Below, one piece after another: positions 10,167-48,795 of a stretch of 64,000 nt of DNA. A program made the position numbers and the translations under genes. The first letter of the stretch is position 1, and every line of letters starts with the position of its first letter. The stretch spans positions 118,121-182,120 of the IMG/VR virus record IMGVR_UViG_3300006112_000008. One strand, given 5' to 3'. The notes beneath the pieces were generated by a model. That model was not told the DNA's origin, did no database searches, and saw only the letters and a program-made list of their open reading frames with translations. This DNA comes from a virus.

Positions 10167-10859
10167 TCAGCTTTCTGGAACCTCAACAACAGAGTTCAAG
10201 AAAGTCTGATGATCTATCCAAATTTTTTTACCAGAAGAGTCCTCTACTAATCTATAGAGCTTACCGTCTTCTCCTTTTCTGCAGTTTTTAACAAAAAAGT
10301 TTACCACGCCTATTGTTTCGGCTTCTACTGTTTGAATAGGGTCCATTAGTCCAAACTGACTCTCATTAACACTTCTGGAGCTATCAGGAATGCTCTCTGT
10401 GCTTCCTATGCCGCCCTCACCCATCTTGCTGACTTTGTGGGCAAGCATATATTGCTCCATAGGATTTACACCCTCGATGTTTTGGCTCAGGGCGTTACCC
10501 ACAAAAACACTCTTTATTTGAGGAGTAAAAAAGCCGCTATGCAGCCAGGATAGATTTCTTTTTTGTCTGAGCTTCATCTTTGCTTTCATTTGTATCTTAC
10601 CCGCATCGTGCTCTATGTGCTCTTTGACATAATCCTCCGCACCTAAAAATTTTGAATACGCCAGGTTATCTCTATCATCGGGATGTACTTCTCTGCTATA
10701 AACCTTTAAAAGCTTACTCGTTGTCTGCAGTAATACCGCGGGATTTATGTGGTTAACAGACATACCAAGGGTTTTCCCCATAACACCCACGTCTAGTCGA
10801 ATGTTTCCAAAGTATTCTTTTATTTTTTGTGCCTTCTCGGCCTTAGTCATCGTATTCAT
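10167..10859 (-). CDS. RNA polymerase beta-subunit middle fragment (RpoB fork/Rif region-like)
   Basis: 230 residues. Near residue 60, HPDDRDNLAYSKFLGAEDYV aligns with the DDxDxLxNxRxxxxGE segment of RpoB; a SGFFTPQIKSVF stretch with NPMEQYMLAHKVSKMGEGGI aligns with FFGSSQLSQFMDQ...NPLxxxxHKRRISALGPGG; and GLMDPIQTVEAETIGVVN aligns with GRVCPIETPEGPNIGLIN. These are the Rif pocket and fork region lining the active site. With 6066-6719 it would make about 450 contiguous residues of beta. The fragment order matches RpoB, but the genes are on opposite strands with 3.4 kb of virion-type genes between them. The TPEGPN core is altered to TVEAET. Confidence 0.78.
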   Translation of the reverse strand: MNTMTKAEKAQKIKEYFGNIRLDVGVMGKTLGMSVNHINPAVLLQTTSKLLKVYSREVHPDDRDNLAYSKFLGAEDYVKEHIEHDAGKIQMKAKMKLRQKRNLSWLHSGFFTPQIKSVFVGNALSQNIEGVNPMEQYMLAHKVSKMGEGGIGSTESIPDSSRSVNESQFGLMDPIQTVEAETIGVVNFFVKNCRKGEDGKLYRLVEDSSGKKIWIDHQTFLNSVVEVPES

Positions 10860-10866
10860 CTGAATT

Positions 10867-10894
10867 ATTATATCTTGTAAATTAAAACCTACAA
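10867..10894 (-). promoter_or_regulatory. Promoter of the beta-fragment gene, TTGTAG-16-TATAAT
   Basis: On the minus strand, TTGTAG (10894-10889) and TATAAT (10872-10867) are 16 nt apart, with the TATAAT only 7 nt before the ATG, so the mRNA leader would be very short or absent. Confidence 0.5.
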
Positions 10895-10920
10895 TCAGAA
10901 TTGCTAAGTAAAGATATTCT

Positions 10921-10948
10921 TTGACGAACGTAAAATATGTATTAATAT
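10921..10948 (+). promoter_or_regulatory. Promoter TTGACG-16-TAATAT
   Basis: TTGACG at 10921-10926 and TAATAT at 10943-10948; the gene at 10975 follows. Divergent from the promoter of the beta-fragment gene. Confidence 0.55.
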
Positions 10949-10974
10949 ATTATTAGTGTGCTAAATAAAACTAT

Positions 10975-12540: not shown

Positions 12541-12555
12541 ATAAACAGTCACGAT

Positions 12556-12636
12556 ATGTCAGAACTGTTTGCATTTGGGCTAGCAGGATTCCTGATAGTC
12601 ATGTGCTACAAAGTCTGGAAAATATTCGATAAATAA
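12556..12636 (+). CDS. 26-residue single-pass membrane peptide
   Basis: ATG at 12556, 16 nt after the previous stop. One hydrophobic helix (LFAFGLAGFLIVMCYKVW) with a charged tail. It is one of many single-helix mini-genes in this window. The strong terminator that follows supports real transcription of the region. Confidence 0.45.
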   Translation: MSELFAFGLAGFLIVMCYKVWKIFDK

Positions 12637-12659
12637 AATTCGGGGTTGGTGGTTAGAAG

Positions 12660-12702
12660 TTATAGGTCGGGGCAATCGTAGCCCCGGCCTATAATTTTTT
12701 TG
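12660..12702 (+). terminator. Intrinsic terminator
   Basis: TATAGGTCGGGGC (12661-12673), loop aatcgta, GCCCCGGCCTATA (12681-12693), then seven Ts. Nearly perfect 13-bp stem. Confidence 0.92.
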
Positions 12703-12759
12703 TTTAATAATGAACTAAAAGCTTTTAAACTTTAATGAACCCCTAACCATAGATAATTA

Positions 12760-22640: not shown

Positions 22641-22683
22641 TGTTTGGTTAAGGGTTATGAAATAGTGGCTACTACTTCATGGT

Positions 22684-22719
22684 ATTATACCTATATAAAG
22701 GTTAAATAACCTAAGGGGG
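22684..22719 (-). promoter_or_regulatory. C-tract promoter (CCCCC-N25-TATAAT)
   Basis: Minus strand: CCCCC (22719-22715), 25 nt, then GG-TATAAT (22689-22684). One of six promoters with this geometry. It precedes the secreted-protein gene 22248-22640. Confidence 0.65.
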
Positions 22720-22760
22720 TAGGGGTAACCCCTAGCTAAAAAAAAGATATTTTTATTAGT

Positions 22761-22891
22761 TATGCATCTAGTTTTATTATTAGATATGCATATGTATTTG
22801 TTGATTAAGCACTTAGGACGTTGGAAAAGCCCAAAATCCTAAGTGCTTATTAATCAACTTGTTATATAATCGGGAGTTTCCGGTTATATAA
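22761..22891. repeat. Cluster of three inverted repeats
   Basis: (a) ATGCATCTA/TAGATATGCAT at 22762-22791. (b) A long hairpin, TTGATTAAGCACTTAGGA (22801-22818) with its complement at 22837-22857, three bases inserted in the second arm. (c) TTATATAA plus CGG at 22862-22873 mirrored at 22880-22891. TTGATTAATAAG also recurs at the end of the ligase gene. Candidate origin, processing site or 3' end structure. Confidence 0.6.
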
Positions 22892-22898
22892 ATACTTA

Positions 22899-44020: not shown

Positions 44021-44042
44021 ACGATAGATAAATAAAAGGGTA

Positions 44043-44070
44043 GCTCCTACTTCCCGGAGGAAGTAGGAGC
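44043..44070 (-). terminator. Intrinsic terminator
   Basis: GCTCCTACTTCC (44043-44054), loop cgga, GGAAGTAGGAGC (44059-44070): a 12-bp perfect stem; on the minus strand TACCCTTTTATTT follows. Ends the 44087-44278 unit. Confidence 0.85.
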
Positions 44071-44086
44071 ATTCCCTGTACCAATA

Positions 44087-44278
44087 TTAGGCAGCTGCAG
44101 TAGCCTCTTCTGTGCCAGGGTTTTCACCCTTGCGCTTGAAGACGTTCTTGATCTTCTCTGCGCCATGCTTTGCCGTGTTAGACACCTTGGTGTTCACCTT
44201 CTTTCCGAAGATGCTTCCCACAGCGTATCCAACAACGGTGGCTCCGAATCCGATTCCTGCGATTACGATCTTGTTCAT
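44087..44278 (-). CDS. Small membrane protein, probably highly expressed
   Basis: 63 residues: one Gly-rich membrane helix (IVIAGIGFGATVVGYAVGSIFG), basic middle, Glu/Ala tail. Codons are GC-rich compared with neighbours (as in the 7142 gene), and it has its own C-tract promoter and terminator, so strong, single-gene expression is likely. Function unknown. Confidence 0.6.
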   Translation of the reverse strand: MNKIVIAGIGFGATVVGYAVGSIFGKKVNTKVSNTAKHGAEKIKNVFKRKGENPGTEEATAAA

Positions 44279-44369
44279 TTTCTGAGTTTGTTTGGTTTTA
44301 GGGTTTGAAACAGATAAAATATGTAATTCCCGTTCTTATCAGAAGGGCATACTTTCTCTGCTTCATAAT

Positions 44370-44406
44370 ACTATACCAGTATCTATGCCATAACACCCCA
44401 GGGGGG
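44370..44406 (-). promoter_or_regulatory. C-tract promoter (CCCCCC-N25-TATAGT)
   Basis: Minus strand: CCCCCC (44406-44401), 25 nt, extended TGG-TATAGT (44375-44370). Drives the 44087-44278 gene. Confidence 0.68.
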
Positions 44407-44431
44407 TAGGGGAGGGGCGCGGGGAATAGCT

Positions 44432-44457
44432 AAAGAAAAGGGGGATTTTACTCCCCC
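44432..44457 (-). terminator. Intrinsic terminator with AGCTA tail
   Basis: GGGGG (44440-44444) and CCCCC (44453-44457); on the minus strand TTTTCTTTAGCTA follows. Ends the 44467-44775 unit. Confidence 0.75.
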
Positions 44458-44466
44458 AGTTCTCTA

Positions 44467-46177: not shown

Positions 46178-46255
46178 TCAATCTTTTAACAGAGCTAAAA
46201 AGCAAACTATATACAGAATGATAGATAGCGTTAGTATTATTTGGGCTGGTTTCAT
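46178..46255 (-). CDS. 25-residue membrane peptide
   Basis: ATG at 46255 overlapping the previous stop by 1 nt. Almost all membrane helix (AQIILTLSIILYIVCFLALL) with KD at the end. Translational coupling to both neighbours supports it. Confidence 0.45.
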   Translation of the reverse strand: MKPAQIILTLSIILYIVCFLALLKD

Positions 46256-46572
46256 CACTTACCTTTTAATTTCTTTATTTCACTTTTGAGCTTTGTGATT
46301 TGTTTATTCTTTTTAGCTAATTCTTTTTCTAGCTCTGCCACTCTTTCTTTGGTTGTGTCTGGTTGGGAGATATTACAAATCAGATCCTCATAATCTTCAT
46401 AGAGCTTCCAAAATGCAACATCCCATTCTCCGTTGGCTAGTTTGAGGCGTTCATTCCATTCCTCTACGTTTTTTACAGGAGTGTTTTTACTCCACACCCA
46501 TATTCCTCTCTGCTCTTCAAAAAATTCTTTTAATGGGTCGTATGCCAGTAATGTTGGGAATAAGTTAAACAT
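46255..46572 (-). CDS. Coiled-coil hypothetical protein
   Basis: 105 residues. C-terminal third is a coiled coil (VAELEKELAKKNKQITKLK). N-terminal part has two Trp-rich patches. Its ATG is 18 nt after the 3' end of the candidate structured RNA, so that RNA may be its leader. Confidence 0.5.
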   Translation of the reverse strand: MFNLFPTLLAYDPLKEFFEEQRGIWVWSKNTPVKNVEEWNERLKLANGEWDVAFWKLYEDYEDLICNISQPDTTKERVAELEKELAKKNKQITKLKSEIKKLKGK

Positions 46573-46589: not shown

Positions 46590-46764
46590 TCTCCTACAAT
46601 CATAGCTACGGGTAAAGACCTAGAGCAGCAATACTAGCTGAGTGGCTAGCGTTAACTGATAAGCCCCGATTACTCGCTGTCCCTAGAGTCTCTTCTCAGG
46701 GAGACCCGTCACAGTCAGAGCGCGCCTAACCACCTCCGGGCAGGACGACTATGACTGTAGGAGA
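46590..46764 (-). ncRNA. Candidate structured RNA (~175 nt) closed by a 16-bp terminal stem
   Basis: TCTCCTACAATCATAG (46590-46605) pairs with CTATGACTGTAGGAGA (46749-46764), one mismatch. Inside, ACGGGT (46609) pairs with ACCCGT (near 46714), AGCAGC with GCTGTC-type bases, and a GAGT-GGCT...AGCC...ACTC hairpin sits at the centre. It is much more GC-rich than the genome and has no ORF. A promoter at 46770-46797 would start the minus-strand RNA at the stem's 5' end. It does not match tmRNA, RNase P or 6S by eye. It could also be a 5' leader of gene 46255-46572. Confidence 0.7.
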
Positions 46765-46769
46765 AATTC

Positions 46770-46797
46770 ATACTAACTCAATAGAGGTGTTTGTCAA
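46770..46797 (-). promoter_or_regulatory. Promoter TTGACA-16-TAGTAT of the structured RNA
   Basis: Minus strand: perfect TTGACA (46797-46792), 16 nt, TAGTAT (46775-46770). Predicted start near 46764, the first base of the terminal stem. Confidence 0.65.
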
Positions 46798-47651: not shown

Positions 47652-47881
47652 TATGCGTCAGGGGTTATAGGAACAAACAATACTTTTATTTGGTTCCCGC
47701 TATTTATTACTTTAGGGTGTTGATAAAACCTGTTTGGTAGTCTCTCTATCGCCCCAGGAGCGAGATGTGGTGGAAGTAGACTTACATCATCCCCATCCAC
47801 CCAACTATAACTCTCTCCAGTCATTTCACAATATATGTCTTGGTCTGGGGTTTCCGGGAAGTTTTTAGTAGGTACGTACAT
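47651..47881 (-). CDS. Small hypothetical protein
   Basis: 76 residues, Pro-rich, beta-type (DIYCEMTGESYSWVDGDDVS). Starts on the last base of the UVDE stop region and ends on the start of the glycosyltransferase-like gene. Not recognised. Confidence 0.5.
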   Translation of the reverse strand: MYVPTKNFPETPDQDIYCEMTGESYSWVDGDDVSLLPPHLAPGAIERLPNRFYQHPKVINSGNQIKVLFVPITPDA

Positions 47882-48795
47882 CAGATTAATTCTTTATATT
47901 TATCTCTTAACTTCAAAACTGCCAAGTTTTTTTTCTTTGCTTCTACCTCTAAATCCACACTGTACTTTTTAACTATTTCATCAGGCAATTCTTCAACATA
48001 ATCATGATGCGTTCTATCTGCAGGGCCTGCTTTCCCTTCTGATATATGCATCAATGGTCTAGAGCTCCCCCAGGAATATATACAATTTGCCGCAGCCTCT
48101 TCTACACTCTCGCCCTCATTATTTATGTTTCTGTGGTGAAAGTCTAGAGTTACAGGGAACAACGGGAAATATTTCCTGATTTTTTGCCACGTCCAGAAGC
48201 TTTTGTCTTCATTTTCAAACACTAGTCGGTTAGTAACGCCAAAAGAAAGCCTGTTTATGCTTTCCCTGAAGTAGTCTAAATTCGCTATATTGTCTTTGCC
48301 GCTGCTTAGGTGGATGTTTAATGGACAAGTTTTATTAACAGGTATACCCAAAAGAGAAAGAAAGGTACTATGAAACTCCAGATTATTTATTGAGTTAGCT
48401 CTCACATTTTCATTAGGACTACCTAAACTTACAAACTGATCAGGATGCATGGTTAGCCTTCCATCTTTTAAGTAAAGCTCAGTAGTAACCCTAGCTGTAT
48501 TCCATATATCAGAAAATTCTTCAGATATAAACTCTGTCCATAGATATCTGAAATTTATGTGATCCGCCAATGGAAACAGTGCGCTACTTATTCTGAATAA
48601 CTTAAAATTATTCAGCATGTTATATTGCAACACCCTGTTATGTTCTTCCAGATTATGCTTCCATATTCCATGCAACTTATTTCTCAACTCTTCTGATCCC
48701 AGCCCTAATTCTGCCGCTCTTGTTAGGGTTATAGTCTTAAAGGTTGATTTGTGCTCTCCTAATGAAATGCAGCAATAGCCTAGTCTGGTATTCAT
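47881..48795 (-). CDS. uvsE: UV damage endonuclease (UVDE)
   Basis: 304 residues, the usual length. LGYCCISL at the start, RISSALFPLADH, LTMHPDQFVSLGSPN, NIHLSSGKDN, LVFENEDKSF, VTLDFHHRNI and MHISEGK carry the metal-binding His, Glu and Asp residues of the TIM-barrel UVDE family. It incises 5' to UV photoproducts, giving damage repair independent of the host, consistent with an environmental phage. Confidence 0.92.
   Translation of the reverse strand: MNTRLGYCCISLGEHKSTFKTITLTRAAELGLGSEELRNKLHGIWKHNLEEHNRVLQYNMLNNFKLFRISSALFPLADHINFRYLWTEFISEEFSDIWNTARVTTELYLKDGRLTMHPDQFVSLGSPNENVRANSINNLEFHSTFLSLLGIPVNKTCPLNIHLSSGKDNIANLDYFRESINRLSFGVTNRLVFENEDKSFWTWQKIRKYFPLFPVTLDFHHRNINNEGESVEEAAANCIYSWGSSRPLMHISEGKAGPADRTHHDYVEELPDEIVKKYSVDLEVEAKKKNLAVLKLRDKYKELI

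Follow-up and report, generated by a model that had tools for sequence, protein, structure and literature searches.

A structured RNA of about 175 nt, headed by a conserved promoter and followed directly by the gene for a small coiled-coil protein, is predicted on the minus strand of the genome of an uncultured large tailed phage with a bacterial host. Sequence evidence makes it very probable that this RNA is real and that it represents an undescribed new family of a known general kind. Comparison with a diverged homologue in a second phage establishes that the sequence, the promoter hexamers, and the structure of the first two helices (P1 and P2) are under selection, and that the RNA and the downstream gene co-occur.

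The window analysed, 64,000 nt in length, comprises bases 118,121-182,120 of a virus record of 182,120 bases (IMGVR_UViG_3300006112_000008). The portal protein of this phage shares mostly 69-100% identity with portals in about 50 IMG/VR contigs and is distantly related (just 23-24% identity) to those of Vibrio phage D69 and Salmonella phage Arash. Read along the minus strand, the locus has a tRNA cluster followed by uvdE, a glycosyltransferase-like gene, and an 84-aa gene ahead of the RNA, and behind it the 105-aa coiled-coil gene (beginning MFNLFP) and then a phosphatase-like gene. The RNA lies approximately 2.2 kb from the tRNA-Lys/Arg/Ser genes, downstream of them and on their strand. The uvdE gene (47881-48795, minus) encodes a UvdE-type UV endonuclease and adjoins the phage tRNA cluster. 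A blastn search over 37 related records yielded one homologue of the RNA, in IMGVR_UViG_3300032242_002651 (L062:2726-2902), with 77% identity over 181 nt. The features of the locus are as follows (all on the minus strand).

46792-46797, minus: -35 hexamer TTGACA, perfect, identical in L062 at 2694-2699
46770-46775, minus: -10 hexamer TAGTAT, separated from the -35 by a 16-nt spacer; transcription predicted to start at about 46764/46763
46590-46764, minus: structured RNA of about 175 nt closed by P1; z -3.79 (homologue in L062, z -6.58), 76% DNA identity
46748-46764, minus: 5' arm of the P1 closing stem, UCUCCUACAGUCAUAGU; the homologue retains 17 of 17 pairs, 2 with both bases changed and 3 with one
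46723-46747, minus: P2 hairpin, adjoining P1; of the 10 pairs in the homologue's hairpin, 9 kept, 3 with both bases changed
46663-46721, minus: putative P3 arm with inner hairpin (GCUCUGA...CCCUGAGAAGAGA.UCUAGGG ACAGCGAGUA AUCGGGGC), the most conserved part, about 88% identical; fits both sequences
46649-46658, minus: linker from P3 to the 3' domain, CAGUUAACGC, holding the palindrome GUUAAC; identical in both sequences
46607-46652, minus: 3' domain, overlapping the linker end, with conserved CUCA.CU.GUAU.GCUGCUCU and CCCGUAG; the homologue's helix is largely broken here, with 78% of cells paired
46590-46606, minus: 3' arm of P1, GCUAUGAUUGUAGGAGA, pairing with 46764-46748
46255-46572, minus: coiled-coil gene (105 aa, MFNLFP...), directly downstream of the RNA; among 38 records seen only together with the RNA, two weak coiled-coil-only matches apart

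Promoter and fold of the RNA

The original prediction had described a GC-rich, ORF-free stretch of about 175 nt closed by a 16-nt stem and carrying its own promoter, leaving the strand unstated. Both the promoter and the informative fold lie on the minus strand, and it is there that the stretch and its stem are borne out. The minus-strand MFE is -72.6 kcal/mol (z -3.79), as good a value being reached by none of 200 shuffles; the plus strand was rejected as the RNA strand, its fold being no better than that of shuffles (z -1.03). GC content is 0.53 in the RNA region and 0.40 in the window, and stop codons occur in all three minus frames, with no open frame spanning the region. P1 pairs 46764-46749 with 46605-46590 (16 bp, or 17 bp with an adjoining U-G pair) and is the sole helix of at least 15 bp with a loop of 60-300 nt on either strand of the window; 30 Markov shuffles of the window contained 0-2 such helices each (mean about 0.4).

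A nested ACGGGT/ACCCGT helix had also been proposed. It is absent from the minus-strand MFE and lost in the homologue, which reads ACGAAT/CCCCGT at these positions, and was rejected. The window's unconstrained MFE departs inside P1 from the structure shared by the two sequences. The GUUAAC palindrome in the linker could support dimerisation, and pairing of CAGCGA with UYGCUG, between P3 and the 3' domain, is possible; we offer both as leads.

The positions of the -35 and -10 hexamers, with their 16-nt spacer, would plausibly start transcription at about 46764/46763, on the first bases of P1. Promoter-like sites of equal quality are frequent by chance, so the conservation of this promoter, rather than its mere presence, carries the weight: hexamers and 16-nt spacing are identical in the homologue, and the spacer itself is about half identical. 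The promoter first proposed is thus kept as a conserved element, transcription from it being a prediction.

Other stretches of the window also caught our attention. The non-coding gaps at 22641-22898 (z about -7.5, minus) and 12553-12759 (z -5.1, plus) have strong predicted folds, and 44021-44466 (minus; GC 0.47, z -4.2) includes a frame of 63 aa as well as a strong terminator-like hairpin (44457-44440).

Conservation in a second phage

The homologue lies in a matching locus, downstream of tRNA genes and uvdE and upstream of an MFNLFP gene; in L062, tRNA-Ser/Arg/Lys and uvdE are followed, in this order, by genes of 112 aa and 84 aa, an open frame of 67 aa, the RNA, and the coiled-coil gene MFNLFP. 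Its RNA folds at -80 kcal/mol (z -6.58). For a test of structure, the fold was predicted from the L062 sequence alone and the window was then checked for its pairs, against a random model in which the observed substitutions were redistributed among sites of the same base. The window keeps 55 of the 63 predicted pairs (47.3 +/- 2.3 at random, p 0.0009). For P1 and P2 together, 26 of 27 pairs are kept where 19.0 are expected at random, a count reached in 0 of 20,000 trials, and five pairs have changed on both sides (p 0.012 under redistribution). The double changes in P1 are U-A/C-G and G-C/A-U, accompanied by three one-sided changes. Shifting the partners by 1-3 columns, as a sliding control, lowered pairing from 94% to 35-43%.

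The two-sequence comparison supports the structure of P1 and P2, and the stem, whose loss in homologues would have counted against the RNA, is conserved (17 of 17 pairs in P1, 9 of 10 in P2). P3 pairing is plausible; the arm is almost invariant, and its pairing therefore lies beyond the reach of the covariation test. The structured noncoding RNA originally proposed is accordingly upheld by the compensatory changes in P1 and P2, by the conserved hexamers, and by the lack of an Rfam match (below), and stands without the nested helix.

The RNA is also better conserved than the genes around it. DNA identity between the two phages is 76% in the RNA and about 88% in the P3 core, compared with 52-67% in the flanking genes (67% for uvdE and the next gene, 52-64% for the others); the MFNLFP gene itself has 53%, with its first 17 nt identical in both phages. 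The excess of identity in the RNA, together with hexamers that were kept while the spacer diverged, points to stronger constraint on the RNA than on the neighbouring proteins.

Autonomous RNA or leader of the coiled-coil gene

The MFNLFP gene starts 17 nt past P1 (AUG 17-21 nt past the RNA end), and no terminator was seen between the RNA and the gene. Our preferred reading, to which we give about an even chance of being right, is an autonomous phage RNA that heads a two-part transcript. A sigma-70-type promoter would start the transcript, the first 175 nt or so would form a multi-armed RNA closed by the 17-bp P1, and the gene for the small coiled-coil protein would follow 17 nt later on the same transcript. 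Processing at the foot of P1 would perhaps set the RNA free, and the paired 5' end and sealed P1 would make this RNA long-lived. The near-invariant P3 arm and linker would be the likely partner-binding surface, the partner being either the helical, Lys-rich protein of the adjacent gene or a host factor. We infer transcription from the minus strand, processing, stability, and partner binding. Several points weigh against this reading. With no terminator before the gene, the RNA would be part of that gene's mRNA unless processed; two members are known, so that covariation amounts to the five double changes; the departure of the window's unconstrained MFE inside P1, noted above, counts here too; and RNA binding by the 105-aa protein is a guess, because its AlphaFold model is of low confidence (mean pLDDT 61) and was set aside.

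Alternatively, the domain could be a cis-acting 5' leader that heads the coiled-coil mRNA and controls the gene through protection of the 5' end from decay or through sensing of a ligand or protein. We consider this the main competitor, with somewhat better than one chance in three. The RNA begins at the promoter and stops 17-21 nt short of the AUG, and no terminator intervenes. Two of the 38 related records contain both RNA and gene, and the identical first 17 nt of the gene in both phages would fit a leader as well. A base-paired 5' terminus stabilises mRNA, as in ompA-type leaders. Against a leader stands the far greater conservation of the RNA than of the gene it would control (76% versus 53% DNA identity), and neither a terminator nor sequestration of the start codon is apparent, the AUG being mostly unpaired in both folds.

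Nor is there a Shine-Dalgarno sequence to hide. An AGGAG in the 3' arm of P1 lies 18-22 nt from the AUG, too distant for normal use, and the phage rarely uses such motifs; sequestration by P1 was therefore rejected. Matches of at least four bases to the Shine-Dalgarno sequence were found at only 15 of 69 starts sampled in the window, most genes being without one, a scarcity that hints at a host with Shine-Dalgarno-independent initiation. A search of the locus for an expression platform (a terminator or a sequestered start) found none, and with the start codon mostly accessible, Shine-Dalgarno motifs rare, and no terminator, a classical riboswitch platform is not visible in the modelled folds. 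It is because no terminator, Shine-Dalgarno sequence, or hidden start codon can be seen that the autonomous RNA is preferred to the leader.

Distribution and comparison with known RNAs

A two-member covariance model searched over 38 related records (six of them of 150-204 kb) and their loci found nothing beyond the two members; its E-values are rough and were not relied upon. The RNA and the MFNLFP gene were found together in the same two records, the protein otherwise giving two weak matches, to its coiled-coil part only. Patterns built on the invariant DNA core gave one real site in 2.9 million viral contigs, that in L062, and conserved-core patterns found no convincing match in bacterial genomes; other core-pattern matches were rejected for missing the flanking conserved motifs or for model scores at chance. 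The RNA had no blastn match among GenBank phages and plasmids, single-sequence scans with the flanking 84-aa and 105-aa proteins found no relatives, and a search for relatives through the 872/828-aa protein returned the same contig only.

In two close relatives, G004 and G007 (portal identity 83-84%), uvdE and the following gene are present and are then succeeded by different genes. The RNA is missing from G007, a contig that extends across the locus, and from G004, where the uvdE side is covered; six large records of the phage group lack it too. Many of the remaining close contigs are short, and the position of their portal gene indicates that they probably stop short of the locus, so that absence there has little weight. 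As the RNA and the MFNLFP gene occur in two records and are replaced by other genes in close relatives, the unit is accessory and narrowly distributed.

The earlier failure to match the sequence by eye to tmRNA, RNase P, 6S, or known phage RNAs agrees with a search of the 4227 models of Rfam 15 with the window sequence (up to E = 10) and the homologue, which gave only chance miRNA and lncRNA matches far below the gathering threshold. ARAGORN and the models RF00005 and RF00023 detected no tRNA or tmRNA at the locus; the phage has a separate tmRNA elsewhere. Family models of GOLLD, ROOL, and phi29-type pRNA did not match the RNA, and a literature search on phage stable RNAs near tRNA clusters turned up nothing that matched it.

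The tmRNAs of this phage group are observations in their own right. Genes above the Rfam cut-off (G000:C1:56254-56688, minus, outside the window; L120-L129) occur in the phage and in nine related records, and the tags that ARAGORN predicts for most of these are unusually long, at about 30 aa, and follow a conserved pattern (e.g., ANSNEMLAPSLAEADAILAKYGYADSELLAA in the source phage). Downstream of uvdE, a close relative, L054, has some 600 nt of ORF-poor sequence (10363-10962, plus) ending in a 95-nt tmRNA-like tRNA domain without the mRNA part (RF00023, 42 bits, below the cut-off); this stretch may be a further unusual RNA.

Several known systems share part of the arrangement. The phi29 pRNA has paired ends, a promoter of its own, and a size similar to the 175 nt or so seen here; its model, however, does not match, and the present RNA is not conserved across its phage group. 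The T4 tRNA cluster has stable RNAs (species 1/2, also bands C and D) that are small, of unassigned function, and close to tRNA genes, a likeness of description; the RNA described here differs in its consensus-like promoter and separate position. Bacterial Y RNA/YrlA, the partner of Ro60, likewise has ends sealed by a long helix and a multi-armed form. The present RNA has no Rfam match to it, and a reading as a Ro60/Y RNA was rejected since no TROVE-domain protein (Ro60) was found in the phage record, which may be incomplete. GOLLD and ROOL occur in phages and prophages, often beside tRNA islands. They are structured RNAs without an assigned function that phages carry close to tRNA genes (PMC12286853). 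The RNA studied here is also phage-borne and close to tRNA genes, but GOLLD and ROOL are about 660 to more than 800 nt long, and it has no Rfam match, stands directly before a small protein gene, and is narrowly distributed. Phage genomes carry further small RNAs and leaders (e.g., PMC9964418). With abiF (RF03085; PMC9964418) and type III toxin-antitoxin RNAs it shares the arrangement of an RNA module directly before a co-occurring small protein gene; it differs in lacking an Rfam match, and the 105-aa protein has no Abi_2 or ToxN domain.

These comparisons bear on three further explanations. The RNA might be a decoy or regulatory RNA directed against host defence or host RNA-binding proteins, as would suit an accessory RNA that some members of the group have and close relatives lack, with other genes in its place; it resembles no known RNA that it might mimic, no Ro60/TROVE partner was found in the phage record, and we regard this as improbable. 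Still less credit is due to a pRNA-like RNA serving the virion or motor in structure or packaging: size, own promoter, and paired ends recall the phi29 pRNA, but there is no Rfam match at E up to 10, and absence from G007, G004, and the six large records argues against a core function. A chance or DNA-level inverted repeat without RNA function is equally remote, for although GC-rich stretches fold well and promoter-like matches are frequent, neither the z-scores, the unique helix, the compensatory changes, and conservation above that of coding genes, nor an invariant P3 and linker, which a DNA cruciform leaves unexplained, fit such an origin.

Large phages are thought to be rich in undescribed RNAs, most candidates being supported by folding energy only. 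Here, compensatory changes in a diverged homologue, the conserved promoter, and the constancy of the neighbouring gene suffice to found an RNA family. A bolder proposal, to which we assign a low probability, is that the RNA joins the Lys-rich coiled-coil protein encoded beside it in a new phage ribonucleoprotein module, inherited as a unit, with the invariant P3 arm as its functional core. If RNA and protein do act jointly, they would form a compact new phage ribonucleoprotein.
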